Source: a virus. From it: a stretch of 28,053 bases of DNA. The DNA lies in IMG/VR virus record IMGVR_UViG_3300032242_001412, positions 1-28,053 of that record. One strand, 5' to 3'. Both the position numbers and the translations under genes were made by a program. This document shows positions 1 through 28,053 of this stretch, piece after piece (the first letter of the stretch is position 1; each line of letters begins with the position of its first letter). The notes below the pieces were generated by a model. It made no database searches. It had not been told where the DNA came from and saw nothing but the letters and a program-made list of their open reading frames with translations.

Positions 1-60
1 CAAGAGAGGTACAGGAATTCTACTCCTGATTCTGGAGGTTATTTAATTGCAACAAATTAA
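1..60 (+). CDS. 3' end of an upstream gene (partial)
   Basis: Frame 1 is open from the left edge to a TAA at 58-60 and reads as the last 19 residues of a protein ending GGYLIATN. Its codons (AAT, TCT, ACT, CCT, GAT, GGT) match the style of the neighbouring genes, whereas the other two frames stop sooner and look less gene-like. It overlaps the next start by 14 bases, as is usual in this tightly packed block. By position it would be a capsid or capsid-associated gene, but too little is present to name it. Confidence 0.5.
   Translation, partial: QERYRNSTPDSGGYLIATN
34..38 (+). promoter_or_regulatory. Ribosome binding site fixing a TTG start
   Basis: GGAGG lies 8 bases upstream of the TTG at 47. 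The reading frame that follows has no ATG for about 165 codons, so this strong Shine-Dalgarno sequence is what identifies TTG as the start of the adaptor gene. Confidence 0.7.
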
Positions 61-991
61 TAGCGGTGATTTTGAAAAACTTGAATTAGTTATTATTCAA
101 AATGGTTCGGAAGTTAATGCTGACGGTACTGTAAATATTTCTCTTTATAATGCTGATGATTCTTCTAATACTGTTTTGTCTAGTGGTTCTGCAACTAATG
201 AACCCCCGTTTGGTATTTATACTTATCAAGTTACTCCAACTGTTACTTCTTTAAATCAAGTTATTCGTGCTGATTGGTCTTATAGTATTAATAGTACTTC
301 TGTAGTTCAATCTACTTTTCATGAAGTAATTACTCCTTATGCTACTGTTTCTGACATTATTGATTATTACAATTTTGGAACTAGTCCTCAGGATTTAAAC
401 TATAAACCTTATGAGCAGATTCGTCAGGCTGAAAGATTGGCTAGAACTGTTATTGAAGGTTATGCTGGTCAAAAATTTGGTAGAAGAAATGGATGGCAGG
501 AAGTTTTTGGTGTTGGTTCTGATGCTTGTTTCTTAACTGAACCTATGTTGCAATTGAATCGTATGTATGAGAATGATATTCTTGTTTATGATAAACTTTC
601 TAGTCCTTCTGTTAATCAATTTGGTTTTGAATTGATGCTTACTCAAACTAATAAAACTGTAAGAATTGTTAATGCTGGCTGGGATGTTCGTTATGATAAT
701 AATATTGACCCTTCTATTCTTTACTATGGCCGCTTTAGAAATAATTCTCGTTATAAGTTTGAAGGAATTATTGGATGGAATTATGTTCCCCCTAATGTTA
801 AATTGTCTGCTATTTTGCTTGCTGGCGATTATTTGGCTAATGATGCTGCTTGGAGAATTAAGTATTTGAATGAGATTTCTTTGAGCGAGGTGTCATTTAA
901 GATGACATCGGGAGCATTTAATGGTACTGGTAATCTTCTTGTTGATAATATGCTTGATATGTATAGAAATGTTGGAATAGTGATTATCTGA
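47..991 (+). CDS. Head-to-tail adaptor (gp6-like connector) with an extra N-terminal beta domain
   Basis: This 314-residue protein probably forms the ring beneath the portal that starts the head-tail connector. Residues from about 100 on (TVSDIIDYYNFG, then the helix around IRQAERLARTVIEGYAGQKF) resemble the gp6-like adaptors of siphoviruses: a helical start, a beta-rich middle, and a C-terminal helix ending in DNMLDMYRNVG. The first 95 residues form a separate beta-rich segment (SGDFEKLELVI, then TVNISLYNADDSS) that recalls BppU-type N-terminal domains and is not part of the usual adaptor. The start is TTG, chosen because GGAGG sits 8 bases upstream and no ATG occurs until far inside. The stop TGA overlaps the next ATG. 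The call rests on sequence style and on gene order ahead of the stopper and terminator. Confidence 0.6.
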   Translation: MQQINSGDFEKLELVIIQNGSEVNADGTVNISLYNADDSSNTVLSSGSATNEPPFGIYTYQVTPTVTSLNQVIRADWSYSINSTSVVQSTFHEVITPYATVSDIIDYYNFGTSPQDLNYKPYEQIRQAERLARTVIEGYAGQKFGRRNGWQEVFGVGSDACFLTEPMLQLNRMYENDILVYDKLSSPSVNQFGFELMLTQTNKTVRIVNAGWDVRYDNNIDPSILYYGRFRNNSRYKFEGIIGWNYVPPNVKLSAILLAGDYLANDAAWRIKYLNEISLSEVSFKMTSGAFNGTGNLLVDNMLDMYRNVGIVII

Positions 992-1437
992 TGATTAATT
1001 CAATCATTGGCAGTATTATGAATATGAAGTGTGATATTTATATTCAACAGAATGCTCAGTCTAGTAGTGGTAATATTACGCGAGAATGGGTTTATGATAG
1101 AACGATTGATTGTAAAGTCGAACCTTTAAAAACTGGCGGTGCTATGAATAAAGGTGATAATAAAAATTATGATACTGGCAATGAGAATAGATATACAGAA
1201 CATTTTCAATTAAAAATTAAATCACCTATTCCTATTTCTCGCCGCGCTAGAATTTCTTCAATACGTGATAATGCTGGTAATGTTATTTATAAAGAATTAG
1301 ATAGGTATAATCAACCGGATATGATTTTTGATGTTACTTCTAATCATGCTGAAATTGATCCATTAGGTAAAATTTGTTATTACGAAACAACTATTCAGAG
1401 AGTTGAAGTGCAACATAATGACTCAACTTCAAATTAA
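991..1437 (+). CDS. Head-to-tail stopper (head closure protein)
   Basis: This 148-residue protein is probably the stopper ring that closes the neck channel after DNA packaging. It has the size and beta-rich pattern of the SPP1 gp16 / HK97 stopper group: an opening strand around MKCDIYIQQNAQSSSGN, a central IPISRRARISSIRDNAGNVI segment, and a final barrel strand pair ending YYETTIQRVEVQ. The start ATG at 991 overlaps the preceding TGA. An internal ATG at 1018 (MNMKCDIY) is an alternative, and neither has a strong ribosome site. Its place directly after the adaptor and before the neck and terminator genes supports the call. Confidence 0.55.
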   Translation: MINSIIGSIMNMKCDIYIQQNAQSSSGNITREWVYDRTIDCKVEPLKTGGAMNKGDNKNYDTGNENRYTEHFQLKIKSPIPISRRARISSIRDNAGNVIYKELDRYNQPDMIFDVTSNHAEIDPLGKICYYETTIQRVEVQHNDSTSN

Positions 1438-2152
1438 AATTGATCCTATTAGTGTAAATAAATCACTAGATATTGTAAAAGAAAAAGTTGGTCAGGTAGA
1501 ATTAATTGTCAGTAAGAATTCTTTGACTGAAATTGGTAAAGCAGTTTTTACCATTACATCAAAAAGATTTTTGCAAGATCTTGCTATTGCAGCAATTGAA
1601 AATCCAGCAAAATATCATCATCTTTATGAATGGTCTGCATTGGGTAATGTTAATAAAAAATTATTTAAAATGAGGCAGGCTTCAGTAAGATATGGTGATG
1701 TTCAAATAGTTTTTATACCAATGAAATCTACTGAAAATGTTCCTATTTCCCCTACATTATTAGTTCCCGGCCCAACAGGAAAAACAGTTACTAGGAGAAG
1801 TATTTTTAGAGATAAAATGAAAATTATGGAAAGCGGTCAACAAATTCATATGGTAACTAAAAGAACCATAGCATTTCTTGACGATCAAGATGATTTATTA
1901 TTTTTACCTAAAAATACAGTAATTAATATTTTGCATCCCGGTGGAAAAGATACAACTAATGCTTTAAATAATTTTGCTGAAAATTGGTATTCTACAAAAG
2001 CCGCAATTGTTGTTTCTCAATCTAAACTTATAAAACAAATTGGTAATGCGGTGGCTAAAGAAATTAATACTGGAAATTCAACTCCTGCAAAAATACAGGC
2101 TACAATTAAAAAAGTTAATCAATCGTATTCTAGAGGAGCGACCGAATTCTAA
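1418..2152 (+). CDS. Probable neck / tail completion protein (HK97 gp10-like position)
   Basis: This 244-residue protein starts at ATG 1418 (MTQLQIKIDP). The frame could extend to a TTG at 1403, but ATG is the better start and both overlap the previous gene. It sits where HK97 gp10-type proteins lie, between stopper and tail terminator, so a role in joining tail to head is inferred. Visible features are an N-terminal helix region with FTITSKRFLQDLA, a YHHLYEW motif near residue 60, a beta-rich middle with a PGPTGK turn, and a C-terminal helical segment of about 60 residues rich in Lys. At 244 residues it is longer than typical gp10-like proteins, and I see no diagnostic motif, so the name is positional. 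Confidence 0.4.
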   Translation: MTQLQIKIDPISVNKSLDIVKEKVGQVELIVSKNSLTEIGKAVFTITSKRFLQDLAIAAIENPAKYHHLYEWSALGNVNKKLFKMRQASVRYGDVQIVFIPMKSTENVPISPTLLVPGPTGKTVTRRSIFRDKMKIMESGQQIHMVTKRTIAFLDDQDDLLFLPKNTVINILHPGGKDTTNALNNFAENWYSTKAAIVVSQSKLIKQIGNAVAKEINTGNSTPAKIQATIKKVNQSYSRGATEF

Positions 2153-2661
2153 TGACAGATTATTCTTCTTTAGCCGTTAATGATCTTAGATTATTTATCT
2201 GGGAACAATTAAAAAGTAATGGAATTTTAAATGAAAATGATTATTATGCTGATGGTTTTACACAACCATTAATTCCAATTATTCCTAGTCAACAAATTCC
2301 TGAATTTAATAATCTTTTACCCGGTAAAGCGTATCTTGTGTATGAAAGTGAAATTATGCCAATAGAAGAAAATTGGTGGATAATTAATGAATTAATGAGT
2401 GTAATGGTAATATCTCCAGATTATGATCAAATAAATACAATAATAAATTTTCTTACAGATTTATTAAGAAGATACGATAATTCTGCTACAGATATTAAAC
2501 AATCAAATATTTTATCAAATAATTTTTTCTTTCATTACACTTCTATTCATAGAATTAAATCACCACAGCCAATGAAACAAGAGGGCGGATTAAGAGTAGG
2601 AACAATAGCAATCCTATATTGTTACAGCAGAAAAAACAATCAATTTGGCCGCTTTGAGTAA
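2152..2661 (+). CDS. Tail terminator protein
   Basis: This 169-residue protein probably forms the ring that stops tail-tube growth and docks the tail to the neck. It shows the alpha-beta pattern of siphovirus tail terminators: an N-terminal helix (LAVNDLRLFIWEQL), then strands (KAYLVYESEI and SVMVISPD), a long helix (INTIINFLTDLLRRYD), and C-terminal strands (FFFHYTSIHRIK and RVGTIAILYCYSR). The ATG overlaps the previous TAA (TAATG), with AGAGGAG at 2132-2138 as the likely ribosome site. It lies immediately upstream of the major tail protein, which is the standard place for this gene. Confidence 0.6.
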   Translation: MTDYSSLAVNDLRLFIWEQLKSNGILNENDYYADGFTQPLIPIIPSQQIPEFNNLLPGKAYLVYESEIMPIEENWWIINELMSVMVISPDYDQINTIINFLTDLLRRYDNSATDIKQSNILSNNFFFHYTSIHRIKSPQPMKQEGGLRVGTIAILYCYSRKNNQFGRFE

Positions 2662-2729
2662 ATATTCTGATATTATATAAATGAGGAAGTACTAAACCAT
2701 CTTCTTTGACGAAAGAGAGGTGAAAAAAT

Positions 2730-3584
2730 ATGGCTGGTAATGCAAAAAATATTATTGTTGGTGCTGCACAGGTATTCATATCATATGGCGCTAATAACAA
2801 TCGTCCAGACGCAACTTCATCATCAGTTTTTCCATTTAGTATAAGTGGAAGCACAAATGGTGGTACAAATATTGCTGCTGTTTCAACCCCTAAGCATTTA
2901 TTAAGCACTGCTTCTTCATACTGGAGAGATTTAGGTTTTACATCAACTGGTGTTGACGTTTCATACGAACCCGGTTATTCAGATGTTGTGGTTGACCAAT
3001 TACTAGATGCTGCACGTTTATTCCAACAAAGTCTTAAGGTTATCATCAAGACAGAACTTGATGAAGGCTCATTTGAAAACATGAACTTTGTCTGGGGTCA
3101 ACAAGAAGTAATTCTTAATGCTGGTTCAGGGACGCAAACAGTTACTACACAATGGACAGCAAGTTCAAGTTCAGTTGCTGCTTCTGCTGCTGTGGCTGGT
3201 CTTAATATTGCTGCCGGTGCTTTGGGTATTACCCCTATGGAACGCTCCTTGGTGTTTGTTGGAAATGCTCCCGGTACTTTCGGTGGTACAACTTCTTACC
3301 CAGCAAGTGCAACAAGTGGTTCAACATCAGTCAGAACCATTGCAACACAAAGTGGTGCTTCAGTTGGTGCTTATACTGACGTATCAAGCATTAGAGGACG
3401 TGAACGTGTTTACTATGCTCGTAGAATTATTCAAGAGCAGACAACCGCACATGCCCTTAAGCGTGATGCTGCTACCGTGTTCCCTGTATCATTCCGTGCC
3501 CTTCCAGAAGCCGATCCTACAAGAGATTATACTTCAGGTTCAGAGTATGGTTTTATCATTGACCGCGTTTACAGCACTACCTGA
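2730..3584 (+). CDS. Major tail (tube) protein
   Basis: This 284-residue protein is the repeating subunit of the tail tube. The N-terminal half contains the pattern typical of actinophage-like tube proteins: LGFTSTGVDVSYEPGYSD followed by VVDQLLDAARLFQQSLKV. The C-terminal half has RERVYYARRII, then HALKRDAATVFPVSFRALP, and ends YGFIIDRVYSTT. Between them lies a Ser/Ala/Gly-rich stretch near residues 140-165. It has its own 68-base leader with a strong ribosome site (GAGAGG at 2715-2720) and is followed by a strong terminator, as expected for one of the most abundant virion proteins. Its codons include more C- and G-ending choices than its neighbours, fitting high expression. Confidence 0.85.
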   Translation: MAGNAKNIIVGAAQVFISYGANNNRPDATSSSVFPFSISGSTNGGTNIAAVSTPKHLLSTASSYWRDLGFTSTGVDVSYEPGYSDVVVDQLLDAARLFQQSLKVIIKTELDEGSFENMNFVWGQQEVILNAGSGTQTVTTQWTASSSSVAASAAVAGLNIAAGALGITPMERSLVFVGNAPGTFGGTTSYPASATSGSTSVRTIATQSGASVGAYTDVSSIRGRERVYYARRIIQEQTTAHALKRDAATVFPVSFRALPEADPTRDYTSGSEYGFIIDRVYSTT

Positions 3585-3601
3585 TAGTTCAATTTTGCTA
3601 T

Positions 3602-3646
3602 ACATAAATACCTCGTCTTTATGGCGGGGTATTTATGTTTTATAAT
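3602..3646 (+). terminator. Intrinsic terminator after the major tail gene
   Basis: ACATAAATACC at 3602-3612 pairs perfectly with GGTATTTATGT at 3628-3638. The stem extends inward to 3617/3623 with three further Watson-Crick pairs and two G-U pairs, leaving a 5-base loop (TTTAT) and a 16-pair hairpin. A short T run (3638-3641) and AT-rich sequence follow. It begins 17 bases after the tube protein stop and separates that gene from the chaperone and tape measure genes. Confidence 0.8.
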
Positions 3647-3653
3647 ACAATAT

Positions 3654-3662: not shown

Positions 3663-3689
3663 CAAATAGAGATTTTTTGGAGGATTTAA

Positions 3690-4016: not shown

Positions 4017-4321
4017 AAGATTTAGATCTAGTCGCTTTAGAAGGAGAAGTGTTTCTATTGGGTCGCTGGAAAAATTATGATGAACTAGAGGAGAGCCTCT
4101 GTTTTGAAGAATTATTAGCAACCATTAACGCTATACGCGAAAAAGAGGCGCGGGATAAAAAGTTCCTTGCCGCTCTTCAAGGTATTGATTTAGATGAAGA
4201 AAGTACTTCTTCATCTGGACAACAAGATTTGGGAGATATTAAAAATCTTCAAGGTTATTCTGCTGCTCAAGAAGGTTTTGGTATTGGAATGGGTCTTGGA
4301 TATAGCGAGTTGGTTGAGTAA
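3690..4321 (+). CDS. Tail assembly chaperone, frameshifted (gpGT-like) fusion
   Basis: A -1 slip on CCCAAAT (3986-3992) joins the first 101 codons of the short chaperone to a second frame that is open from 3986 to TAA 4319-4321, giving a 210-residue protein. The downstream part has the standard T-domain look: EGEVFLLGRWKNYDELEESL, then FEELLATINAIREKEARDKK, then an acidic tail and a Gly-rich end (GFGIGMGLGYSEL). This frame has no independent start of quality. The GTG at 4049 lies inside the LLGRW region and its upstream AAGGAGA is too close. The stop overlaps the tape measure ATG (TAATG), consistent with coupled translation. The T extension would recruit tail tube subunits to the chaperone-coated tape measure. 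Confidence 0.8.
3986..4036 (+). promoter_or_regulatory. Programmed -1 frameshift signal (slippery heptamer plus hairpin)
   Basis: In the zero frame the site reads C CCA AAT, so both tRNAs can re-pair on CCC AAA after slipping back one base. The -1 frame is blocked by TGA at 3983-3985 and opens exactly at the heptamer. Five bases downstream, AGCGAC (3998-4003) pairs with GTCGCT (4031-4036). A smaller inner stem, TCTAG (4007-4011) with TTAGA (4022-4026), gives a hairpin of suitable spacing to stimulate slippage. Confidence 0.8.
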
Positions 4322-7300
4322 TGGTTGATAATAGAATAACTTTTCAAGTTGATGGTACAGCCAATTTTCAATCTGTTTATAAAGAACTTGCTGCATTAAA
4401 ACAAGCCATTGCTGCTACTAATGCTGAAACTCAAAACTTGGGTAAAGCAAATGTTCGTTTTAGTCAAATTGAACAAGCAGAAAATACTTTTAGACAATTA
4501 GCATCATCTATTAGTGGTGTTAAAACAGAAATGGTTAATCTTTCTGCCGGGGCTGAACATTTAAGCCAAAGACTTTTAACTAATAAAAGATCTATGTCCG
4601 AAATGGTTTCTACTTGGCGGGCAGGGTCTAAAGCAATGGTTGGCGATATTCAAACTATCGCTGAACATCATGCCAAATTAAATCAATCATTAGTTATTCC
4701 AAGTTCAGTTCATAATGGTCAAGCAATGGTTCTTACAAATATGAAAGCCACTGCTGATCAAGTTTTAGTTGCTCAAAAAAGAATGCAGGCTTATAACACT
4801 GAAATGATGAACATGAGTAACCGAATGGTTAATTTCGGTAAAAATACTCAATGGTCCGGTCGTCAGTTAACCGTTGGCATCACAGTGCCCCTATTAGCCG
4901 CTACAGGCGCTCTAGGCGCTATGTATATGGATGTTGATAAAAACATGCGTAAACTTTTATCAGTGTATGGTGTGGGCGGTACAGCGCATGGAGCATTCTC
5001 CAACATGCTACCTTCACCACAGGAACTTGATAAGGTTAAGCAAGGCGTTGCTGATGTTTCTAGGCAAATGGCAGCAATGTATGGACAAACCGCAGCGCAG
5101 ACTACAGCGGTTGCCGCTGACCTTGCTGCTGCTGGTTATACACAACAACAACTACTTGATCTTACCAAAACTGTTTCTGATGCTATGGTTTTGGGAGAAA
5201 CTGATCAACAAACTGCCGTTAAGGCTACCATTGCAATTCAAAATACTTATAGATTAAGTACAAAACAAACTGCTGATTCATTAGCATTCTTTAGTGCTGC
5301 TCAGGCTGCTACTAGCACTACAATGAAAGATCTTATTGATGCTGTTCCTCGCGTTGGTCCTATTATGCAAAATCTTGGAGGAACTTATAAAGATACTGTT
5401 GCTTTACTTGTTGCTATGAAAGAAGGAGGAGTGGCGGCTGGTGAAGGTGCTAATGCTTTAAAGAATTCATTACAAAGAATTGTTGCTCCAACAAATACTG
5501 CTGTTAAACAATTAGCACAATTTGGTATTAATTTGAAAGAAATTGCTCATGCTGGTACTCCTATTCAAATGATTGAAAAACTACAGGCATCATTACAAAA
5601 ACTTGATCCTGTTGCTCGTCAGGTTGCTATTACTGATTTGTTTGGTAAATTTCAAGCAGCCCGTGTTACTGCTCTTTTAGATAACTTTAATAGAACTGGT
5701 ACGCAATCTGCAAAAGTTATGCAAATGATGGGTTTAAGTTCTCAACAATTGATGGACATTCAAAAACATCAACAAGAAACATTAATGCAATCTCCTTCTA
5801 TGAAATTTCAAGCAGCGATTGAATCATTAAAACAACAATTACTACCCATTGGTGAAAAACTTATTGAACTTGCTACTCCAGTGGTAAAAGCCATATCTTG
5901 GTTAGTTAATGCATTTCAAAATATGGGTCCATTGAAATATATTATTGCAGGATTTGCAGGATTATCTGCTATTGCTGGTCCAATTATTATGTTTGTTGGT
6001 TTGATATCTAACTTGGGTGGACAATTATTTAAAATTTCTCAACAAATGCGTATGTTTAGACAAGGTTTTGTAGATGGTGGTGGATTAAGTAAACCAATTA
6101 CTGGTTTTTGGAATGCTTTTAAAGAAGGTATTAAAGGTACTCAAAATTACTTGCAAGATTTTGATGCAGCAGAGTATGCTACTAAAAAAGCAACAGATTC
6201 ATTAACAGAATCTGCCGTAAGTCAGAAAGAATCTTGGGATAGATTAACAATAGCACTTGCTCAGTATAGACAAGAACTTGAAAGAATTAGAGCAATTTCT
6301 GGTTCTACCCCACTTGGTCCTGATACTGGTCCCGGCCCACTTGGCGGCGGTGGTGGTATATATCCAAGAGTTTCACCAGCAGGTCCAGTGTCTCCAGCAG
6401 GTATTGTTGGTGAAGCATCTCGTCCTGTTCATGTAGAAGCACTTAATGTAAATCTTGCTAATCAGAGAGGCAAACTTACTTTAGACGGCGGCGGAGAAGT
6501 TGAATTTTCTCATATGCGTCCAATGGAACAAACTAGACAGGGTTCGAATGTTCTTAATGAACCCGGCTATGATACTAGATTTAATGCTCAAGGTAATTTT
6601 GGAATTGTTCCCGGCTACTTAACTTCTGGTCTTGGTCAAACTATAAATAATCAATTAGGTAATCGTGGTCTTCCTGTTATTCCTACAAGTATGAATAGCG
6701 ATCAAGTTGCTCGTCACATACTTGAAGAATTAGGCATTCCAAATATTACAGATGCTATGGTTAAAAAAGCCATGCAAGAATTAAGTATTGAAAATATTGG
6801 TTCTTCTGAGGCTGGCAAAATTGCTCAAATGCAAGGTTTAGCAAGATTACAAAATAATCCTATTGCTATGAAACAATTTAAATCACTTGGTAGTAAAGAA
6901 GGTGCAACGGGTGCAGATGTAGAATCTTTCTTCGCCGCGCAACTTGGTCCAGAATGGGAAACTATTAAACAAAATGCTGCTAAACGAGTTTTAAATTTAT
7001 ATCAAAGGGCTGAACAACAAGTAGATCATGCAGTTAGATTTCAACAAGTTGCTCCATTTCAAAGTATTCAAGAACAACTTAGTTTAACTGGTGCAAGATT
7101 CTCAGAATTACTTTCTGAAGAATTTAATTATATTGTTCAAGGATATTCTCAAGCATTAAAAGATAGTTTAACTATTGCTTCTGATAATGTTGCTAATATT
7201 ACTGAACAAATGAAACGTAAAACAATGGTCAAACTTGTTAACGCTGGTGCTGCCTCTGAATCTATGATGAATCCTCTAATTTCCGCTATTGAAAGTCTTA

Positions 7301-19500: not shown

Positions 19501-21376
19501 GGATGAATTAAATTACACTAGTTCTGCCAATAACTATTATGCTATTGATAGTGTTCAAAATAGTTCTAGCGTAACAATCATTTATGAAAATAATTCTTCC
19601 AGCATAGCCGCAGGAAATATATCATTATCTAGTGGTTCAATAGTATGTGACGAAATAATTATTCCTTCTACTGCCAAAATGTCTTTAAATCAAGAAGAAC
19701 TTGACGCACAAATTAATGATATTATTGCTTCTAATCCTAATATTATTGGTGTGGAATTCAGTCCAACAGGTAAAGTTGGGGGGCTTCAAAGAGGTTTAAA
19801 GAATACTTCTATTAGAGATCATATTCTTTATGATGATACAACTTTAACTAGGTTGGGTAATTTAGATGGCTGGCAGACATCTTCTACAAGTTTTTATTTT
19901 TCTAAATTAGATAACAATGGATTGCGGTCATTTGATGGATCAAAAGAAAAATCTAGCATTATGTTTCGTAATAATACTTGCGAATTTGTTGTTCAAAAAA
20001 ATCAAAAATCTAATAAAGAAGCATTAGCAATTTCTCCAAAAAATATTACTTCAACTAAATATGCTCAAGTACCAACATCTGCATCAAGTTTTAACGAATT
20101 TAGTGCTGTTTTTCAAATTCCTGATAGTAGAAAAGCAATAATTTCTGAAGATGAAGAAACTATTGAAGTTGGTATTCATATTTATATGGGGGCACATGAT
20201 AAATTATTAATTGGCATGAGAAATAATCATAAAAATCATACAAATAAAGTATTTTTAGCATTTTCTAATTATTCTGATTACTATGATGTAGAGTTTAAAA
20301 GTTCAAATATGAAATTAATACCTAATGTTTTTGATGGAAGAAAACATAGGATATGTGTAACCACTGATTGGATACAGACTATTTGGATATATATAGATGA
20401 AAAATATTATGACAAAATTGTTTTAAATAAAAAATTAATAAAAAACAATGCTAACTACTGGGGTTTTTATGCAGAAAATCTTATTAAAAAAAGTACTGGC
20501 AGTGATGATACTCATAAAACAATATATGTTGATTTGCATGAATTATATGCTGTTAATTATAATAAAGCGCCATATAATCATAGCAGCACAACATTGGGAG
20601 AAGTAAATAACTATAGACATCATTGGTTAAATCCGCACTTTTTAAATAATCTTCTTAAAAATGAAAAAAATGCTGAACCAGATTATTATTTTTGGGGAGA
20701 TAATCTTTTAACTGGAGTAAAAATATATGATAAAGTTGAATTTTCTACATCTCCAGTTTTAGAACCGACTATTGAAATAGATGAATCATTTGGGTATACT
20801 CCAGAGAAAGTAGCACTTGGAGAAAGCCAGTATCATAAAACTACAATAAAAGATTTAAGTTATTCAAAAATTTTTACATCTCCATTTAATTTTTCTACAA
20901 TATTAGTTAATAATACTAGTGCTGGAGAAGCCATATGGATTGGAAAAAATGATTCTACTCTCAATGGTTCGACAGTAACTCCATTTACTATAAATGCTAA
21001 TACTTTCAAATTAACTGATTCTCATACATTTACAAAAACAATTAATCATTCAGAAATATCAAATTCAATAACATTAACAACATTATGGATACAAAATACT
21101 AGAGAAGCAGAAGAATTAATTAGACAAGTTGAATTAATGGCAGATTCATTTTCTGCACAAATAAGCGTTACAATTTTTGGAAATCCATTAATTCAAATAG
21201 GAGATATTTGTCAACTTATATATACTCCAAAGAAAATAGGCTATGATCCAGAAAATTCTCAAGCAAAGAAAATATACTGTATAGTCAAAAGTGTTAGTCA
21301 AGATTTTTCAGGTGGTTTAAAAACAAGTCTTTCATTACGTCCTTTATTAAAAACTAATTCCACCTCTTTGGTTTAA
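16589..21376 (+). CDS. Baseplate hub / tail tip protein with added binding domains
   Basis: This 1595-residue protein is probably the tip hub that closes the tail and carries receptor-binding parts. Residues 137-226 look like a fibronectin III domain (NVYYRIVPVSKNG, then IKITWPKVPGAVAYDIYRS). About 240-335 is a beta-sandwich ending in NFEVFPIDYW. About 650-830 has the hub core pattern: SLTVNLFDAS, ITNILNVSGFTDYDYD, LFDVLKEFFVANQIGAAF, DEYGVLRFYD. About 940-1004 is a small FCCH-like domain. About 1165-1330 resembles a concanavalin/laminin-G lectin (KHRICVTTDWIQTIWIYIDE). About 1505-1590 returns to a hub-type end (FGNPLIQIGDICQLIY, VKSVSQDFSGGLKTSLSLRP). It is much longer than simple hubs because of these insertions. 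The ATG overlaps the previous stop. Confidence 0.6.
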   Translation: MLKLDGNSEQAFAQLNAINMNPVVWAEWNYNSLTKPYVVTSSDVGSYQSISNVLNNPDSWQAQYNPQPGYRVAGGGPNFETTGQLDAIALYSKSNLEYEKYSALFSLRSSGNYFKAVFYVKANMPNVIGNPSVINNSSITAASVGSTSISARNVYYRIVPVSKNGVRPLYDPNGADIKKVRNNTSASIKITWPKVPGAVAYDIYRSNGYSDVLPWITTISDLSYVDNLSNNPTQYTPKNFENMSFYFGAAARLFKNGNFVESTQCFTRYVSEETGTYTSKNNSIYIDGVKYQKVELFFGSDDDFDAVRFDLDFHGSYNYSSILISNFEVFPIDYWNFYNVEYFPIESIFTPHRPGEALLHPYLPDSDKVIKKFMQNTFIYKPVNLAFNAVDYIDSGVKPFTQIRNSVFNTYKYYISENAQNTDYITTIRAQYHNYLDVNKIVIKNANGGAIVHTANGLSNNMENVGGEITLLGPNNTILTTIPFFPGDYDPHGILTLYYDGLTWSTSRGGWSPPKLTDSGILQNVTSSVTGIIYYATTPQKLKESYDRSHIIEMSLRLEIDLSDITIGIKCDKTIDDSDSVAGFPFGFINSNKGSVNIHNIPVYKNTFAHTIFDHISDSATFSDLLREGTKFTVGLTSPNLSFTESFIPFMTMFSDSWEVQDLNSLTVNLFDASETYLKSMEAPPYLSWNEDIFLTITNILNVSGFTDYDYDGLLEILKRKQKSIVAFWCDRNKTLFDVLKEFFVANQIGAAFDEYGVLRFYDLDYYIYEYTNSSFNPDFIVTDIPQIFTNKDKLIINYEANLEKDSYSAQMEKKIGKVTIDYKQPSRIFTPDSTHMKESPWGRRGLTKRPVYVETNDSTLIKSWTSKSVLAKDRIMYIDPYLMTGEKVANTIGGWSGYAFMQGELISWNGLEYNFTYNLPAQANTFTNTKNVTITGSSATNYSIIFNTDGHPFITGQRVKLQGLPTTNHLDELNYTSSANNYYAIDSVQNSSSVTIIYENNSSSIAAGNISLSSGSIVCDEIIIPSTAKMSLNQEELDAQINDIIASNPNIIGVEFSPTGKVGGLQRGLKNTSIRDHILYDDTTLTRLGNLDGWQTSSTSFYFSKLDNNGLRSFDGSKEKSSIMFRNNTCEFVVQKNQKSNKEALAISPKNITSTKYAQVPTSASSFNEFSAVFQIPDSRKAIISEDEETIEVGIHIYMGAHDKLLIGMRNNHKNHTNKVFLAFSNYSDYYDVEFKSSNMKLIPNVFDGRKHRICVTTDWIQTIWIYIDEKYYDKIVLNKKLIKNNANYWGFYAENLIKKSTGSDDTHKTIYVDLHELYAVNYNKAPYNHSSTTLGEVNNYRHHWLNPHFLNNLLKNEKNAEPDYYFWGDNLLTGVKIYDKVEFSTSPVLEPTIEIDESFGYTPEKVALGESQYHKTTIKDLSYSKIFTSPFNFSTILVNNTSAGEAIWIGKNDSTLNGSTVTPFTINANTFKLTDSHTFTKTINHSEISNSITLTTLWIQNTREAEELIRQVELMADSFSAQISVTIFGNPLIQIGDICQLIYTPKKIGYDPENSQAKKIYCIVKSVSQDFSGGLKTSLSLRPLLKTNSTSLV
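19406..19600 (+). repeat. Small beta domain, copy 2 (FCCH-like)
   Basis: Residues about 940-1004 of the hub protein: NTDGHPFITGQRVKLQGLP, then LNYTSSANNYYAID and SSSVTIIYEN. It is clearly related to copy 3 in the tail fibre. Confidence 0.6.
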
Positions 21377-21418
21377 TTTAGTATTTTTGATATTATTGTT
21401 TAATATAGGAGATTTTTT

Positions 21419-22087
21419 ATGGGAAAACCAAAACATAGCGGTAAGCCTGAACTTAGGACTACACATGTCGATAATAATACGGTTGAAATAACTAAAGATG
21501 ATCACCGTAATAATGATGATTTTCTAAAAAAACATCCACATGTAAAAGTTGTCGAAAAAAATTCTTCAAAAAAAATACAAAAAGCACATAGGCATGGTCC
21601 GGTAAGCAAACATCATGCAAGCACAAAAACAAAAAAACATTCATCTGGAACAAGTGTTTCGCATCATAAACCTAAAAAACCGGGACAGACTAAAGATATT
21701 TCCGTTAACGATGAAGATGAAAATTTATTAGATAACCCAGACTTACAAGATCCAGATAATTTGCAAGATAGAGAAGAAGAAAGTGAACGAGGAGAATATT
21801 TGCATCACGAAGTTGCATCAGAAGAACATGATCCAATGGCTGATCTAGAAAATTATGATGATAATACTAAAACTAGATATAAGCATGATGCTGGCCCATC
21901 AAATCATACTGAATTGGGAATTGATTTGCCCACAGACATGTCTATTGATCCAAATTCTTTCTTACCAATATTAGATTCAAGCGCAGGGACAACAACATTT
22001 AAAGCAAGTCTTATATTTAATCAAGATCCAGAAAAAATAATTAACTACGACGATTTTGATGTTATTATTTCACAGGTGACTACATAA
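21419..22087 (+). CDS. His/Lys-rich protein of unknown function in the tail tip cluster
   Basis: I do not recognise this 222-residue protein. The first 95 residues are very basic and His-rich (KKHPHVKVVEKN, KAHRHGPVSKHHAS, VSHHKPKKPG). Residues 96-150 are strongly acidic (DEDENLLDNPDLQDPDN, REEESERGEY). The last 70 (SFLPILDSSAG, TFKASLIFNQDPEKI, DVIISQVTT) look like a small folded beta domain. There is no signal peptide or membrane segment. It follows a 42-base gap with a good ribosome site (AGGAGA, 21407-21412, 6 bases from ATG), and its stop overlaps the next ATG. A virion or assembly role is inferred from position only. The charged N-terminal part is low-complexity and may be disordered. 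Confidence 0.6.
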   Translation: MGKPKHSGKPELRTTHVDNNTVEITKDDHRNNDDFLKKHPHVKVVEKNSSKKIQKAHRHGPVSKHHASTKTKKHSSGTSVSHHKPKKPGQTKDISVNDEDENLLDNPDLQDPDNLQDREEESERGEYLHHEVASEEHDPMADLENYDDNTKTRYKHDAGPSNHTELGIDLPTDMSIDPNSFLPILDSSAGTTTFKASLIFNQDPEKIINYDDFDVIISQVTT

Positions 22088-23463
22088 TGATAAAAGGATT
22101 CTATAGAGTAACATCAAATGGTGAGTTTGTTGCCGAATATGAAAATATGATTACTTCTAATGGGTTGCAAGCCATTAATGAATTTTTATGTGGAATGATA
22201 CCGGATTGGGCGGGATCTATAGCAATTGGAAGTTTAAATTCTAATCCAACAACTTCTAGTACACAATTTTTAGATTATGAATATTTAAGATATCCAACAA
22301 CATTAAAAGGATACGTTAGTTCATCGGCAATAAATAAAATTTCTTTAAAAACATCTCTTGACCCATCATTAACATTTCAAGCATATGAACTTGGAATTTT
22401 TCCAAATAGGGTTACAAGCAGTCGCATAGATCATGCTGAAATTTCTAATTTTTCTGGAATATCAAACGGTAGTAGTACTTGGTCGGTAGGTATTAATACA
22501 GATAATTTAATATTAAATCCCAGTTTTGAAACTGGTACTACTGCTAGTTGGACGTTTAATGGTGGATTAAATGTTTCAATAGTAACTTCATCAGCATATT
22601 CTGGAACATATGCTATGCAATTGCAAAAAAATAGTAATGTTTCCTCATTTGTTCAAAATATATATTGGGCACAACCTGCATTATTTAATTTAATTGGTGG
22701 AGTTTCTTATACTTTCAGTTTCTATGCAAAACGTGTTAGCGGAACAAATCCTATGCCCATAGATTTTTCATTGTTTAGTTTAGGTGCTGGAGGTGGATAT
22801 GTTGCAAATGGAGCAAATCTTACTAATGATTGGCAAAAAATTTCTATAACTCTTCCCGGCACATCAGTAGTCACTGGAACTGGAGTTGCTTATATTAATA
22901 TGAGTGGAGCGGTTCTTGGAGATACAGTATTAATTGATTCAGTAATGTTACAAGGACCATCTAGTCCAGCAATAACTGCTTCAGGAGCAAGATCTGATTC
23001 ATTAACAGTACAATTACCTGCTGGACAAACTGTTACCTCACCAATTTCTATGGGAACAGGGGCATATAATTTAAATGATAGAATAGATATTCTATATTAC
23101 ACTGCATTACCAATAACTTCAGTTTCAACTTTAACTGTTAATCTTATTGATGATTCTGCTAGTGCAAATAAATGGACGGCAGTAGCAAATATTGCTCCTA
23201 CCGCTAGTGGAATATATACTACTAGTCGTTTATTTTTTACTTCTGCTCCACCAGATGCATTTACAAATAATTTATCATCTTGTCAAGTAAAATTTGAAGG
23301 TAGTGGAACTATTTTGCTGGATCATATGAAAATGTCTACTGGCGAAACAAAAAATATAGATTCAATATTAACTAGTAGAATATATTCATCAAACTCATCT
23401 CCATTAATTACAAAAGCATATGGTCAACCAATGGAAATTGAATATTATATTCAGGTGACATGA
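22087..23463 (+). CDS. Receptor-binding-type minor tail protein with carbohydrate-binding-like domains
   Basis: This 458-residue protein is likely part of the tail tip that binds the cell surface. Residues 1-135 carry the attachment-type opening common in phage tail fibres: YENMITSNGLQAINEFL, then SIAIGSLNSNPTT and LRYPTTLKGYV. Residues 140-287 resemble a carbohydrate-binding beta-sandwich (NLILNPSFETGTTASWTF, SAYSGTYAMQLQ, NDWQKISITLPG, DTVLIDSVMLQG). Residues 297-440 look like a second, diverged sandwich that ends with ILLDHMKMSTGE. The ribosome site AGGTGA (22073-22078) lies inside the last codons of the preceding gene, and ATG overlaps its stop. The sugar-binding role is inferred from fold pattern, with no ligand evidence. 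Confidence 0.6.
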   Translation: MIKGFYRVTSNGEFVAEYENMITSNGLQAINEFLCGMIPDWAGSIAIGSLNSNPTTSSTQFLDYEYLRYPTTLKGYVSSSAINKISLKTSLDPSLTFQAYELGIFPNRVTSSRIDHAEISNFSGISNGSSTWSVGINTDNLILNPSFETGTTASWTFNGGLNVSIVTSSAYSGTYAMQLQKNSNVSSFVQNIYWAQPALFNLIGGVSYTFSFYAKRVSGTNPMPIDFSLFSLGAGGGYVANGANLTNDWQKISITLPGTSVVTGTGVAYINMSGAVLGDTVLIDSVMLQGPSSPAITASGARSDSLTVQLPAGQTVTSPISMGTGAYNLNDRIDILYYTALPITSVSTLTVNLIDDSASANKWTAVANIAPTASGIYTTSRLFFTSAPPDAFTNNLSSCQVKFEGSGTILLDHMKMSTGETKNIDSILTSRIYSSNSSPLITKAYGQPMEIEYYIQVT

Positions 23464-26400
23464 TGGCTGATAATAAAGATTTAGATAAATTAATACCGGG
23501 TGCTAAATACAATGTCAAAATTGTTCCAAAAAATCTTTCAGATGTTGATGCACATGAAGTTTCATCTTTTAATTATCAATTTGTAGTTCCCAATGATTGG
23601 CCGGTAGGATCAGGATCTCCAATTCCAAGTAACCAAACTGGAAAAAATACTTACACTGGTCCCGGCGGTACATATTCATCTAGCAATATGTTTATAAATA
23701 AAGATGGAATATTTGCTTATAAATCAGGTTCTGCAATATTAGATGTAAATCGAACTGTATGGATAGATGCCAATACTGGTAATGCATATTTTAGTGGATC
23801 AATTGTTGCTACTTCTGGTTCAATTGGTGGATTCACTATTGTTTCAGATAATTTATATGGATATATTAATGGAAAATATTCTGGTATCAGACCATCTTCT
23901 TTTCCATTTTATTCTGGAGCAAATAACACATTTGGCGACGGTGCAAAATTTAGTGTAGATACTTACGGTAATTTATATGCTCAGTCTGCATCATTTGCTG
24001 GAACTCTTACTGCACCAACAATTATTACTGGTTCTATTACGGCTAATGCTGCATCTTTTGGTTTTTCTAGCAATAGTCAACTTGTTGGTGGTGCCATATA
24101 TGTTCCTAATACAAGTAGTCCAAAATTTACTGTTGATTCTGCTGGTAATTTAGTTGCTCAGTCTGCTTCTATAACTGGACAAATAGTTGCACAATCAGGA
24201 ACTATCGGTGGATATACAATTCGTGCCACAGATTTATATGGAGGTACGGGTACAAGTTTTGTAGGTTTATCTGCATCAGGGACTTATTCAATTTTTTCTG
24301 GAGCAACTAATTCTACAGGATCAGGAGCAAAATTTAGTGTAACTCCTGCGGGAGATTTATATGCTCAATCTGCCTCTATTATTGGAGGAATAACAGCAAA
24401 TTCTGGATATATTGGAGGAACCGGCGGTTGGAAAATATCAACTGGTTATATAACATCAGGTGCCGGATCAGGATCAATTACGCTAGATGGTGCTAATAAT
24501 AAAATATATATAGGTTCAGGATCATACAACAATCCTAATACTTCATTCTATGTAGATGGTGCGGGACAATTTAGTTTAGGAAACAAACTAACCTTTGATA
24601 CTTCTGGAAATCTTTCAATTTCAGGATCAATAACTGCTAGTTCAGGAACAATAGCAGGATGGTCAGTATCTGGTCAAGAAATATCTAAAAATTCAACTAA
24701 TGGAACTCATATAGCATTAAACTCTGGTCCAATAAATCCTAAAATATATATTGGGCAAGGTAATCATGCATCTCAAGATACTGGATTTTATGTAGATTCA
24801 ACTGGAAGATTTTCATTAAGCAATCAATTATATTTTATTCCTGATAATGGTACTGCTCAAAGTTCTAGTACTGTTGCATCAACAAATATAAATTCATATC
24901 AAATTACTACAACAATAGATAATAGTTCAGGTTCAGTTCTTTATAAAGGAATATTGGCAATGGGGACGGATCTTGATGTTGATACTTATGCAGCAAGTGT
25001 TACTAATACAAATCCGGCCATTGTTGTTTTAAATAAATATCCTTTAAATACTAACGTTTCATCTTCTATTACTTTTAAAGCAGATAATTTTTCACAATTA
25101 ACAGTTACTGGAAAAATTAAAGGTGCAGTAGAATCTGTAACACCAATTCAATCTCCAAAATTATTTTCAACTATAACTAGTGCATCTGTTGGAGCCGATG
25201 GATCAGTAGTTATATTTAATACAACTGGTCATTCTTTTATATCTGGTGAACATTTAATTTTACAAGGATTATCAGCATCTGGTAATCTTTCTAATTTAAA
25301 TTATTCTGCTTCTTCTGGAAATAGTTATTCTATTATTTCAGCATCAAACAGTTCTAGTTTTTCAATTTCAATTCCCACATCTGCTAGTTTAATTGCTGGT
25401 AATTATACTCCCATATCTGGTTCTGTAAGTATTCAAGAATTAACAATGGGTCTACATCCATCTGAAGGATATGTTGGTACACCACCAACTTATGTTGACC
25501 GCGAATCTTGGTATCATGATGCCGGAATTGGTGTAAGACTTGATAAATATAATTGGTGGTTTACTAATAATCAATTCCGCGTCGGTACAGATGAAACTTC
25601 ATTCAAATGGGATGGGTCAAAATTTAAAGTTAAGGGCGGCGGTTTATACACTCTTGAAATGAGTGTTGGATCATCAGATACTAATAATTATTTTGCTATT
25701 TATAATTCTAATATTACAACATTAGGCTATGGAGATACTTATAGTGATACTTATTATGATAAAACTAATTTACCATTCTTTAATAATATAGACACACCAT
25801 TCTATGTAGATGCTACTGGAAAATTTAGTTTAGGTAATCAATTAACATGGAATCCTTCTACTTCTACATTAGCAGTTAAAGGAACAATTAATGGTCAATT
25901 TGTAGGTTTTGGTGGTCCAAATAGTGGTTCTACTAATGTTGCTTTAGGTGGAGATAGTCCATTATTTAATAATAATGGTGGTATATATAATATTGCAATT
26001 GGATCATCTGCTTTATATTCTAATATTCGTGGTATGCATAATATTGCACTTGGATATCAATCATTATTTTCAAATACCAATAATAATGGTGAATATAATA
26101 CAGCAATAGGCTATCAATCATTATTTAATAACACTAATGGTCAATATAATACAGCAATAGGATTTTGGTCATTATTGAATAATATTTCTGGCACATATAA
26201 TGTTGCCCTAGGTGCTCAAACATTACAATATAATACTACTGGTAATGCCAATGTTGCTATTGGAGAACAATCATTATTTAATAACACTACTGGGTATGGC
26301 AATATTGGTTTAGGGGTAGGAACTTTACGAGATAGTGCTTCGGGAGATTCTAGTATTGCTATAGGAAATAATGCAATAGGTAAAAATCTTATTTCTCGGT

Positions 26401-27866
26401 ATAACATTGCTATTGGGCAGGAATCACAATTTTATACGCAAGGTGATTATAATATTTCAATTGGATATCAATCATTATATAGTGCTTCTACAATTATTGT
26501 AGGTAGTGCAGTATATATAAATAATACTGGTTCATCAAATATTGCTATTGGTTATCAAACATTACATAATAATGTAACGGGAAATTTCAATACTTCAATG
26601 GGATCATCAGCATTATATTCTAATATTGACGGAGCGTATAATACAGCATTAGGTTATCAAGCCATGCGCGACAATACTTCAGGTCCATATAATATTGCTT
26701 TAGGATATCAAGCAATGTTACATAATACAATTGGGGATTCAAATATTGCAATTGGATATCAAGCATTAACAAGTAATGCTACTGGAGTGGCAAACATTGC
26801 TTTTGGTCAAGGTGCTTTGTTATATAGTAATGGTGATTATAATATTGGAATTGGAGACAATACTTTATCTAGTTCTTCTGGTACTCATAATGTTGCTATG
26901 GGATCATTTGCTTTATATTCAAGTTCTGTGGGAATTAACAATGTTGCTATAGGAAACTCAGCAATGCAATATTCTCAAAATAATGAAAATGTTGCTATAG
27001 GATATCAAGCATTAAATACTAATGTGACAGGATATCAAAATGTAGCAATTGGTACAAGATCTATGATTGGAATTTATTCTTCTTCCGGTGCTGGATGTAC
27101 TTTTGTAGGTTGGGAATCTGGATTAAATATAACTAATGGATATTATAATGTAGGAATTGGGCTTCAAGCATTTAAAAATTTAACGACTGGCGCTGATAAT
27201 ACTGCAATTGGTTGTTTTACTGGTCAATATCAGCAGGGCGGTAGTTTCAATACTTATGTGGGATTTGATGCAGGGGCTGCGTCCTCTACTCCAAATATTT
27301 CTCAAGCGGTGGCTTTGGGTCAGAGCGCGGTTTGTCAAGGTACATTATCAACAGCAATAGGTGCTACTGCTGTAGCCTCAGCAAATTATGAATTTGTTTT
27401 GGGAGTAGCGGCAAATAATGTGAGAATACCGGGAACTCTTACTACTTATGGAACAGTAACTTTGCCCGATGTGTATGCTAGAACGGTAGCAACTCCGCAC
27501 ACTGTTTATATTAATAGTGCGGGATTATTAGCAGGAGGCATATCTTCTTCAAGAAAATATAAAAATAATATTCAAATTAAAGATTATTCAATTGATACAT
27601 TAAAAAATATTGAAATTGTTTCGTTCAACTATAAAGAAGATAATTCTCCAGACGTTGGTGTTATTGCTGAACAAATAAATGAAAATGTTCCTGAATTAAA
27701 AGATTTTGTTTTAAAAAATAAAGATGGTGAAATTGAAAGTTTTGCTTATGATCGAATGGTAATGCCACTTGTTGTTTTTGCTCAAAAACAACAAAAACAA
27801 ATTGAATTATTGCAAGAAAAAATAGATAAATTAGAGAAACTTATTTCAGGATCAACGGTGGTATAA
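23463..27866 (+). CDS. Long tail fibre with YadA-like repeats and S74 self-cleaving chaperone
   Basis: This 1467-residue trimeric fibre probably performs host recognition. Two ATGs lie together at 23460 and 23463. AGGTGA at 23453-23458 is 1 and 4 bases away, so 23463 is preferred. Residues about 7-45 resemble the end of a fibronectin III domain (LIPGAKYNVKIVPKN). Residues 80-460 hold shaft repeats (FSVDxxGNLYAQSASITG, TASSGTIGG). Residues 577-638 are an FCCH-like domain. About 690-820 is mixed beta. About 824-1319 contains about 28 NxAIGYQAL-type repeats. From residue 1362 follows an S74 (endosialidase-type) intramolecular chaperone. It has the Ser-Lys pair in SSRKYKNNI (S1362, K1367), VGVIAEQ, and a C-terminal coiled coil (QKQIELLQEKIDKLEK). 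Self-cleavage after trimer folding is expected. Confidence 0.85.
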   Translation: MADNKDLDKLIPGAKYNVKIVPKNLSDVDAHEVSSFNYQFVVPNDWPVGSGSPIPSNQTGKNTYTGPGGTYSSSNMFINKDGIFAYKSGSAILDVNRTVWIDANTGNAYFSGSIVATSGSIGGFTIVSDNLYGYINGKYSGIRPSSFPFYSGANNTFGDGAKFSVDTYGNLYAQSASFAGTLTAPTIITGSITANAASFGFSSNSQLVGGAIYVPNTSSPKFTVDSAGNLVAQSASITGQIVAQSGTIGGYTIRATDLYGGTGTSFVGLSASGTYSIFSGATNSTGSGAKFSVTPAGDLYAQSASIIGGITANSGYIGGTGGWKISTGYITSGAGSGSITLDGANNKIYIGSGSYNNPNTSFYVDGAGQFSLGNKLTFDTSGNLSISGSITASSGTIAGWSVSGQEISKNSTNGTHIALNSGPINPKIYIGQGNHASQDTGFYVDSTGRFSLSNQLYFIPDNGTAQSSSTVASTNINSYQITTTIDNSSGSVLYKGILAMGTDLDVDTYAASVTNTNPAIVVLNKYPLNTNVSSSITFKADNFSQLTVTGKIKGAVESVTPIQSPKLFSTITSASVGADGSVVIFNTTGHSFISGEHLILQGLSASGNLSNLNYSASSGNSYSIISASNSSSFSISIPTSASLIAGNYTPISGSVSIQELTMGLHPSEGYVGTPPTYVDRESWYHDAGIGVRLDKYNWWFTNNQFRVGTDETSFKWDGSKFKVKGGGLYTLEMSVGSSDTNNYFAIYNSNITTLGYGDTYSDTYYDKTNLPFFNNIDTPFYVDATGKFSLGNQLTWNPSTSTLAVKGTINGQFVGFGGPNSGSTNVALGGDSPLFNNNGGIYNIAIGSSALYSNIRGMHNIALGYQSLFSNTNNNGEYNTAIGYQSLFNNTNGQYNTAIGFWSLLNNISGTYNVALGAQTLQYNTTGNANVAIGEQSLFNNTTGYGNIGLGVGTLRDSASGDSSIAIGNNAIGKNLISRYNIAIGQESQFYTQGDYNISIGYQSLYSASTIIVGSAVYINNTGSSNIAIGYQTLHNNVTGNFNTSMGSSALYSNIDGAYNTALGYQAMRDNTSGPYNIALGYQAMLHNTIGDSNIAIGYQALTSNATGVANIAFGQGALLYSNGDYNIGIGDNTLSSSSGTHNVAMGSFALYSSSVGINNVAIGNSAMQYSQNNENVAIGYQALNTNVTGYQNVAIGTRSMIGIYSSSGAGCTFVGWESGLNITNGYYNVGIGLQAFKNLTTGADNTAIGCFTGQYQQGGSFNTYVGFDAGAASSTPNISQAVALGQSAVCQGTLSTAIGATAVASANYEFVLGVAANNVRIPGTLTTYGTVTLPDVYARTVATPHTVYINSAGLLAGGISSSRKYKNNIQIKDYSIDTLKNIEIVSFNYKEDNSPDVGVIAEQINENVPELKDFVLKNKDGEIESFAYDRMVMPLVVFAQKQQKQIELLQEKIDKLEKLISGSTVV
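23760..24840 (+). repeat. Fibre shaft repeats (IGG / FSVDxxGNLYAQSAS type)
   Basis: Four to five imperfect units of roughly 80-100 residues. Each pairs a strand motif such as AKFSVDTYGNLYAQSAS or TSFYVDGAGQFSLGN with ITASSGTIAGW-like or VAQSGTIGGYTI-like turns. A related FYVDATGKFSLGNQL unit recurs at about 25800-25850. Such repeats usually build triple-stranded beta shafts. Confidence 0.7.
25191..25377 (+). repeat. Small beta domain, copy 3 (FCCH-like)
   Basis: Residues about 577-638 of the fibre: NTTGHSFISGEHLILQGLS, then LNYSASSGNSYSII and SSSFSISIP. It aligns along its whole length with copy 2 in the hub protein. Confidence 0.6.
25932..27419 (+). repeat. About 28 tandem YadA/Hep_Hag-like repeats in the fibre
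   Basis: Units of mostly 17 residues follow the pattern YNIAIGYQALxxNTTG. Examples are YNTAIGYQSLFNNTNGQ, ANVAIGEQSLFNNTTGY and SNIAIGYQALTSNATGV. Some neighbouring units are also close at DNA level, for instance GGATATCAATCATTAT near 26050 and 26463 and GGATATCAAGCATTA near 26755 and 27001. The last units (SQAVALGQSAV, LSTAIGATAVA) are closer to the bacterial adhesin form. The repeats predict a trimeric left-handed beta-roll. Confidence 0.8.
27546..27866 (+). other. S74 intramolecular chaperone (auto-cleaved C-terminal domain)
   Basis: The last 106 residues of the fibre. The Ser-x4-Lys dyad of S74 endopeptidases is present (S1362 and K1367 in SSRKYK). It is followed by SIDTLKNIEIVSFNYKED, the conserved VGVIAEQ, YDRMVMPLVVFAQKQQKQI and a terminal coiled coil. 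In this family the domain templates trimer folding and then cuts itself off before the Ser. Confidence 0.85.
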
Positions 27867-27885
27867 TTAAAATGGTGATATTTAC

Positions 27886-28053
27886 ATGAAAGAAATTAAC
27901 TATAATATAGTACAAGGAGATAGTTTTTTGCTATCTTTAACTTATACTGATTCTTCCGGTTCCGCCGTCAATTTGACAGGCGCATCTGCCTATATGGAGG
28001 TAAGAGATATGCCGGGAGGAAGAATTCTTTCTACCACCGCCTCAGGACTTGCA
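27886..28053 (+). CDS. N-terminal part of a further tail protein (partial, runs off the window)
   Basis: An open frame starts at ATG 27886 with GGTGAT (27874-27879) 6 bases upstream and continues 56 codons to the right edge. It begins MKEINYNIVQGDSFLLSLTY, then SSGSAVNLTGASAYMEVRD, then MPGGRILSTTASG. This matches the N-terminal beta domain common in baseplate or tail proteins of the BppU_N kind: a Gly-Asp-x-Phe opening, a strand, NLTG, and a strand ending in a charged turn. The gap after the fibre gene is 19 bases, so it is probably co-transcribed. The rest of the protein is not visible. Confidence 0.65.
   Translation, partial: MKEINYNIVQGDSFLLSLTYTDSSGSAVNLTGASAYMEVRDMPGGRILSTTASGLA

Follow-up and report, generated by a model that had tools for sequence, protein, structure and literature searches.

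Missing palindromes and a flip of the proline codon before glycine in a lineage of uncultured tailed phages

Introduction

Avoidance of restriction sites is an established property of phages, and according to a survey of prokaryotic viruses (PMC6286503) complete or almost complete elimination of sites concerns about one-tenth of viral genomes, and the share of orthodox Type II host sites found under-represented is 27.2%, that found eliminated 7.1%. The IMG/VR contig IMGVR_UViG_3300032242_001412 (positions 1..28053, the entire record of 28,053 bases, hereafter the window), the open reading frames (ORFs) of which represent the late gene set known from tailed phages, raises the question why two short palindromes, AGCT and CCWGG (CCAGG or CCTGG), are completely missing from it and why every proline preceding glycine is encoded there by CCC or CCG. 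An initial annotation of this DNA ascribed the pattern to a host lineage with two restriction specificities and to a phage evading them by loss of sites, and this reading is partly supported by the analysis described here. Since site avoidance is established for viral genomes, at least as represented in the survey cited above, host Type II restriction is its natural agent, and we consider evasion of such restriction through synonymous site loss to be the best explanation, with a probability of about 0.8. The evidence comes from synonymous null models of the window, from the sites missing in its relatives and from the opposite codon choice made by sister phages at homologous positions.

Results

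In the window CCAGG, CCTGG and AGCT are each counted 0 times, while CCCGG occurs 22 and CCGGG 14 times (36 CCSGG in total) and GATC 88 times. Between 14.8 (base composition) and 24.9 (maximal-order Markov model) CCWGG are expected, so that the value of about ten proposed initially was too low, and the most depleted words are AGCT among 4-mers and CCAGG/CCTGG among 5-mers. As a null model, 2,000 synonymous-codon shuffles of the 12 window ORFs of at least 100 amino acids (aa) were used; they contained 30.9±2.8 CCWGG (minimum 22) and 129±8.5 AGCT (minimum 103) against none observed for either, and 8.1±2.6 CCSGG (maximum 17) against 35 observed, with GATC as a control giving 92 in shuffles and 87 in the actual sequence. 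The absence of CCWGG, the gap in AGCT, the excess of CCCGG/CCGGG and a loss that spares CCSGG while affecting the W-centred site and AGCT, all claimed beforehand, are thus borne out. Both missing words are palindromic, like Type II recognition sites, and stand at zero in each of the three codon phases, and the window is depleted of them, as under Type II avoidance, relative to its composition and its coding content alike. All 34 Pro-Gly dipeptides of the window are encoded with CCC (22) or CCG (12) and none with CCA or CCT, while the remaining prolines use CCA 170, CCT 121, CCC 18 and CCG 18 times; the initial annotation was therefore right about each single case, about the 19 dipeptides of the tape measure and about CCA and CCT as the main codons of other prolines, its total of 35 having to be corrected to 34. 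The Pro-Gly phase accounts for 27 of the 31 CCWGG expected, the other two phases for 2.5 and 1.0. The roughly threefold excess of CCGG (54 against 16 by an order-1 Markov model) fits Pro-Gly codons shifted into CCS-GG.

Two viral searches revealed 72 related loci, and a portal search gave 80 loci, partly from contigs already in the set. Both AGCT and CCWGG are at zero in 15 of the 72 (L002-L006, L055 and L057-L065), L002 and L062 being parts of one contig and the CCWGG expectation being only 4 in L057 and 2 in L059. One locus (L007) lacks CCWGG and ACGT and keeps AGCT, another (L066) lacks AGCT and CCGG and keeps CCWGG, and the other 55 are devoid of CCGG and usually also of CGCG plus GGCC, GCGC, TCGA or ACGT. 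In the longest contig of the window type, G031 (L223-L228; 102,989 bases), observed-to-expected counts are 0/276 for AGCT and 1/83 for CCWGG, and both words are at zero in the 47.5 kb of G003. With relatives serving as a stand-in for the rest of the genome, the return of CCWGG to normal frequency outside the window, considered initially as a possible counter-indication, is not seen. Among long CCGG-avoiders, G009 (100,657 bases, 100,000 of them included in the count) has CCGG 0/85, GGCC 0/116 and ACGT 0/140, where the smaller of two expected values is given (the first 40,000 bases were counted for G006, G014, G017 and G036), and in eight long relatives all eliminated 4-base words are palindromic and have, accordingly, the form of Type II sites. 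As a separate observation, the non-palindromic 5-mer CGACG/CGTCG is at zero in G008, G009, G013, G014 and G020 (L085-L088, L102-L106, L126-L127, L128-L129 and L132-L133).

For comparison across the lineage, a site was scored if its expectation was at least 4 and was taken as lacking if the observed count did not exceed 5% of expectation. Of 92 portal-bearing rows (three of them contigs of metagenome-assembled genomes, MAGs), 20 had expectations below 4 and 72 were scorable for both CCGG and CCWGG: CCGG alone is lacking in 53 and CCWGG alone in 17, no row lacks the two sites together and two rows have retained both, so that within the scored contigs the two losses exclude each other. The two rows lacking neither site, G041 and L157, represent one phage (99.97% identity over 7.1 kb), which branches next to phages without ACGT and CCWGG and may be a mosaic or a case of relaxed avoidance; within positions 1-15999 of its locus L242, no CCWGG is met before base 5550 and no ACGT before base 9145. 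A further contig of 4.2 kb (L149) appeared to avoid both CCGG and CCWGG, and with expectations of 5 and 4 this was taken as chance. On the portal tree, built without rows for the window, G023 and G025, the number of changes amounts to 2 for CCWGG, 3 for CCGG, 4 for AGCT, 5 for ACGT, 6 for TCGA, 7 for GGCC, 7 for CGCG and 11 for GCGC, these values being partly inflated by chance zeros in short contigs.

The two states are accompanied by opposite usage of proline codons. Pro-Gly is encoded by CCC/CCG throughout nine CCWGG-avoiding contigs and by CCA/CCT throughout 24 CCGG-avoiding contigs, G041 being mixed, and alignment of homologous proteins (up to 1700 aa long and in pairs above 40% identity) demonstrated a change of codon class in every one of the 286 Pro-Gly comparisons, which cover 67 distinct positions. 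Selection acting on the DNA word itself is in this way told apart from requirements of the protein, from translation and from deamination, which would hit the cytosines and spare the central base. Since each Pro-Gly codon pair has the form CCN-GGN and hence contains CCNGG, a genome keeping this dipeptide may drop CCWGG or CCGG and not both, and this either-or choice splits the lineage into two exclusive states. The dipeptide is present in long contigs at or somewhat below chance level (46 against 50.8 in G003, 82 against 88.8 in G028 and 66 against 89.4 in G034). The more general statement that no genome can avoid CCWGG and CCGG together was dropped because of two short control contigs, outside the lineage, without both: L390 (CCGG 0/13.2, CCWGG 0/6.6) and L412 (CCGG 0/9, CCWGG 0/8.8), the zero counts of Pro-Gly in which decide nothing with just 1.6 and 2.7 expected, respectively.

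The controls were at least 120 viral loci drawn by an arbitrary 14-base word, 24 of which were shorter than 5 kb and were set aside. In the remaining set of 96 contigs, 32 have lost one or more of 22 tested palindromes and 15 have lost at least two; among the first 80 loci, 63 reach this length and 24 of the 63 have an eliminated palindrome. Site elimination is therefore common in contigs of viral metagenomes, and what stands out is the switching of sites within one lineage. Two control contigs, L390 and L411, are without CCWGG and CCSGG, and L411 as a double loser led to its family. Over its whole contig (L466+L467, 25,089 bases) a single CCNGG is found against 51 expected and Pro-Gly is absent against 19.9±4.1 in residue shuffles, Pro-Ala and Gly-Gly being normal. 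Its primase-helicase used as a query gave 27 loci (L478-L504, the L411 contig included), all with CCNGG at 0 or 1 (two keep one site) and with no Pro-Gly; 12 contigs dereplicated at 90% DNA identity and comprising 34,684 residues have 0 Pro-Gly against 87 expected. In stretches of distant named relatives the dipeptide is found 31 times against 30 expected (Pseudomonas phage P7869) and 9 against 16 (Vibrio phage 1.133.O, with CCNGG 23/43). Gly-Pro is also scarce in the family (10 against 87), and being low in both outgroups too (11 against 30 and 7 against 16) it gives no ground for a claim. Three contigs of the family had no protein match to the lineage of the window at an E-value of 1e-5. Every Pro-Gly encodes CCNGG, and for this reason CCNGG is not evadable by codon choice, whereas CCWGG or CCSGG alone is, because other proline codons remain available before glycine. 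In the L411 family, where codons give no escape, Pro-Gly itself appears to have been purged.

As to the genes of the phages, no C5 methyltransferase (PF00145) was found in 30 related records and no N6/N4 methyltransferase (PF01555) in 26 virus records, six matches to the latter all lying in a MAG labelled cyanobacterium; for the window these scans cover its late genes. This is consistent with the proposed evasion by site loss rather than by DNA modification. PADLOC applied to 65 of 132 ORFs of G031 detected no model of Type II restriction or modification among Cas4-like, homing-endonuclease and other matches. HNH-type genes, recognized by motif, are scattered and do not track the motif sets, and no protein cluster was found that occurs in all six long CCGG-avoiders and is absent from the nine CCWGG-avoiders. 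Four clusters are exclusive to G004 and G031: two are unknowns, one is an IMPDH and one a peptidase of the M15 type. A phage-encoded nuclease is an unlikely agent of the site loss.

Seven related contigs, G031 among them, carry WhiB (Pfam match in one, motif and cluster in the others), which is treated as a marker of actinobacterial hosts in the consulted parts of PMC10202952 and PMC6802176 and in this way points to actinobacterial hosts for the lineage. In addition, a 4.8-kb portal contig sits in an Actinomycetota MAG, the family of which was taken as the candidate host family. C5 methyltransferases above cut-off are present in 29 of 151 genomes of this family, and ten of their neighbour genes include one HpaII-family gene, one MvaI/BcnI-family gene, one with a C-terminal domain of NgoFVII and one with a weak BsaWI match below cut-off. 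The methyltransferase beside the MvaI/BcnI-family gene has Dcm-like matches over the catalytic part only, and for the MvaI/BcnI-family enzyme itself no match to a solved structure was found from which specificity for CCWGG or for CCSGG could be read. NgoFVII matches in 33 of 296 genomes cover the model partially and belong mostly to frames of ~700 aa, so they are probably another protein of the superfamily and were left unused. We know of no family model for AluI-type enzymes. Judging from these domain matches, enzyme families that would fit CCGG and CCWGG exist in the candidate family and are rare there. The codon usage of candidate hosts is the reverse of that in the window: Pro-Gly is mostly CCA/CCT (148 of 191 in G066, which has an MvaI/BcnI-family enzyme, and 129 of 186 in G123, which has one of the HpaII family; 180 kb of each genome), so that the check for the same bias in host genes, suggested by the initial annotation, revealed the opposite one. 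An arrangement observed besides consists of a C5 methyltransferase of 420-470 aa next to an opposite-strand gene of 215-261 aa (host loci such as L270, L271, L274, L277 and L282); a scan of three of these neighbours left two without a Pfam match and showed one to be BglII-like, and these small genes might possibly be uncharacterised restriction enzymes.

All ORFs of the window considered here are on the plus strand. The head-tail adaptor (47..991, phrog_442) has relatives of ~28-30% identity in Streptomyces phages and contains no Pro-Gly. It is followed by an ORF of the structural module annotated as function unknown (1403..2152, phrog_11539; two Pro-Gly, both CCC), by the ORF at 2152..2661 (phrog_10194; one, CCC), some Streptomyces homologues of which are annotated as tail terminator and which as a query gave 55 related loci, and by an Ig-domain protein (2730..3584, phrog_2175; two, both CCC). 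The ORF of 3727 aa at 4321..15504 occupies the tape-measure position and is a putative tape measure by its size and by analogy with the gene order of Samisti12; it has 19 Pro-Gly (12 CCC, 7 CCG, no CCA or CCT), and relatives were not found with it as a query against viral contigs. Further downstream are ORFs of 361 aa (15504..16589, partial-length match to phrog_1194; one Pro-Gly, CCG), of 1595 aa (16589..21376; four, 3 CCC and 1 CCG) and of 222 aa (21419..22087, without PHROG match; one, CCG), a tail protein (22087..23463, phrog_9983; one, CCC) and a repeat-rich ORF of 1468 aa (23460..27866; three, 2 CCG and 1 CCC), which by inspection is probably a tail fibre.

Discussion

The data suggest that the hosts, probably actinobacteria, would carry Type II enzymes cutting palindromes of 4 to 5 bases, that genomes bearing the sites would be destroyed so that no AGCT or CCWGG was left and any that newly arise are selected against, and that under protein constraint the removal would proceed synonymously, CCA or CCT before glycine being replaced by CCC or CCG. 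Sister lineages may face other enzymes (recognizing CCGG, CGCG, GGCC, GCGC, ACGT or TCGA) and would then acquire the opposite codon at the same positions. Several observations weigh against this scheme. The actinobacterial assignment is tentative, coming from WhiB and one 4.8-kb MAG contig, with the other two MAG matches labelled cyanobacterium and Cytophagaceae. In direct search HpaII and MvaI/BcnI were found in 2 of 296 candidate-family genomes each, which is rare, even though CCGG avoidance is near-universal outside the branch of the window; of the initial proposal, the site loss stands and the two restriction specificities of the hosts are still conjecture. The MvaI/BcnI family spans cutters of both CCWGG and CCSGG. 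EcoRII-C gave 0 of 296, the control genomes being equally silent, so that no conclusion follows. Among the ten neighbours of methyltransferases two are MutH-like, one is BglII-like and three are without match; the usual sites of MutH-like and BglII-like enzymes contain GATC, and GATC is not avoided by the lineage. Non-palindromic words are absent as well: CGACG and CGTCC in G009, CGACG in G008, and some of the 6-mers missing from G031 (CTCTTC 0/37, CTGAAG 0/33, CATGTC 0/20 and GAGCCC 0/19). The two-state pattern rests on 2-3 changes of the tree only, and a C5 methyltransferase is encoded by another WhiB phage, G352.

The cutting agent might instead belong to the phages, if their nucleases degrade host DNA at palindromes, site-free phages being self-protected and differences between clades reflecting nuclease alleles. 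The near-absolute avoidance and the alternation of CCGG and CCWGG, resembling that of two alleles, would agree with this, as would HNH, endonuclease VII and Cas4-like genes in some relatives, and genes may be missed, given that some contigs are partial and that completeness is not established for the others. Nevertheless, the sporadic HNH genes, the lack of any cluster following the motif sets, the PADLOC result for G031 and the overlapping sets avoided by WhiB contigs sharing only 0-1 proteins with the lineage make this possibility a slim one. Translation, that is a host codon-pair preference against CCA/CCT before glycine, was itself raised by the initial annotation and draws on the fact that most of the expected CCWGG fall into the Pro-Gly phase; its probability is negligible, and it was rejected, since the other phases are also at zero in the window (only 3.5 expected) and hold one CCWGG against 54.6 in G031, candidate hosts favour CCA/CCT before glycine, and sister phages show the exact opposite at homologous positions.

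Erosion of sites by mutation, through methylation and deamination or through repair resembling the very-short-patch type, has in its favour that most of the avoided sites are typical targets of C5 methyltransferases. We regard it as very improbable, because proline is kept and the third codon base, which is the centre of the site, is what differs, an outcome not expected from a deaminated methylcytosine in CCWGG, and because 0 of 276 AGCT is not expected from erosion alone; at the conserved Pro-Gly positions deamination was rejected on the same grounds of the differing central base and retained proline. All data on the lineage come from metagenome contigs, and the gradient along G041 is unexplained, which leaves some room for an artefact of assembly or library preparation, such as digestion of or bias against the sites. 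Such an origin is scarcely credible, as different motifs are absent within one lineage together with compensating codons and the same clade-specific pattern emerges from many metagenomes. Evasion of host Type II restriction therefore retains our preference over these four alternatives.

The L411 family suggests that restriction reaches past codon choice and alters the amino-acid neighbours allowed in a proteome; we consider it likely that restriction can forbid a dipeptide and that evasion of CCNGG requires a proteome-wide purge of Pro-Gly, as appears to have happened in this family. On this reading, phages keeping Pro-Gly must choose between evasion at CCWGG and at CCGG, and the sites would split their host ranges. 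The set of missing palindromes may serve as a barcode of the restriction enzymes met by a phage lineage and could link uncultured phages to hosts, for example freshwater actinobacteria, for which the lack of CRISPR-Cas is described in the consulted part of PMC10202952 as hampering host prediction. In a literature search outside which most subscription journals lie, we found no description of the codon flip between sister clades or of the forced CCWGG/CCGG choice, no report of a Pro-Gly-free phage family or of a dipeptide effect, and nothing in print on a barcode-like use of missing palindromes.

Escape from Type II restriction through the loss of sites is a known strategy, and the lineage resembles the double-stranded DNA phages of Rusinov et al., 2018 (PMC6286503), in which orthodox Type II palindromes are eliminated (ratio below 0.1). 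As far as the main text of that study goes, which makes no use of the words synonymous, codon or amino acid, the present case differs in concerning one uncultured lineage with clade-specific sets, in the codon flip and in the CCWGG/CCGG choice, hosts and enzymes being here deduced indirectly. The named phages reached by protein search are phages of Streptomyces, and in genome content the closest parallel is with Stanwilliamsviridae such as Samisti12, where, as in the long relatives of the window, genes for glycosyltransferase, ribonucleotide reductase, portal, protease, capsid and structural proteins and a very long ORF follow in similar order and the head-tail genes are homologous to those of the lineage; the likeness is known from two genes and gene order, with ~28-32% identity for the two genes among the listed rows and a GC content of 0.50 there against 0.34 here. 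Samisti12 has a gap of its own, GATC being at 0 against 230 expected in bases 1-50000 (L313).

Other phages with WhiB exhibit diverse gaps. Among 21 scored contigs (4 of 25, under 4 kb, were set aside) 8 have no eliminated palindrome. AGCT, CCGG, GATC and GGCC are at zero in L324, L328, L330, L335, L338 and L343, which share 0-1 proteins with the lineage; five of these six also have TCGA at 0 and CGCG at 0-1, and five are 94-100% alike in protein. One near-identical phage (L322, L323, L327, L334 and L336), likewise with 0-1 proteins of the lineage, lacks all four palindromes with TA at the centre (ATAT, CTAG, GTAC and TTAA) as well as TATA, its 32-kb contig (L470+L471) carrying a C5 methyltransferase, and G353 (L472-L477, 106,615 bases), with few proteins of the lineage, has AGCT 0/473 and CCGG 26/143. 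The WhiB-encoding phages E7 and F5 of 'Ca. Planktophila', with genomes of 39 kb, are comparable by their description in the consulted part of PMC10202952: their hosts are low-GC freshwater actinobacteria, devoid of CRISPR-Cas and possessing nucleases.

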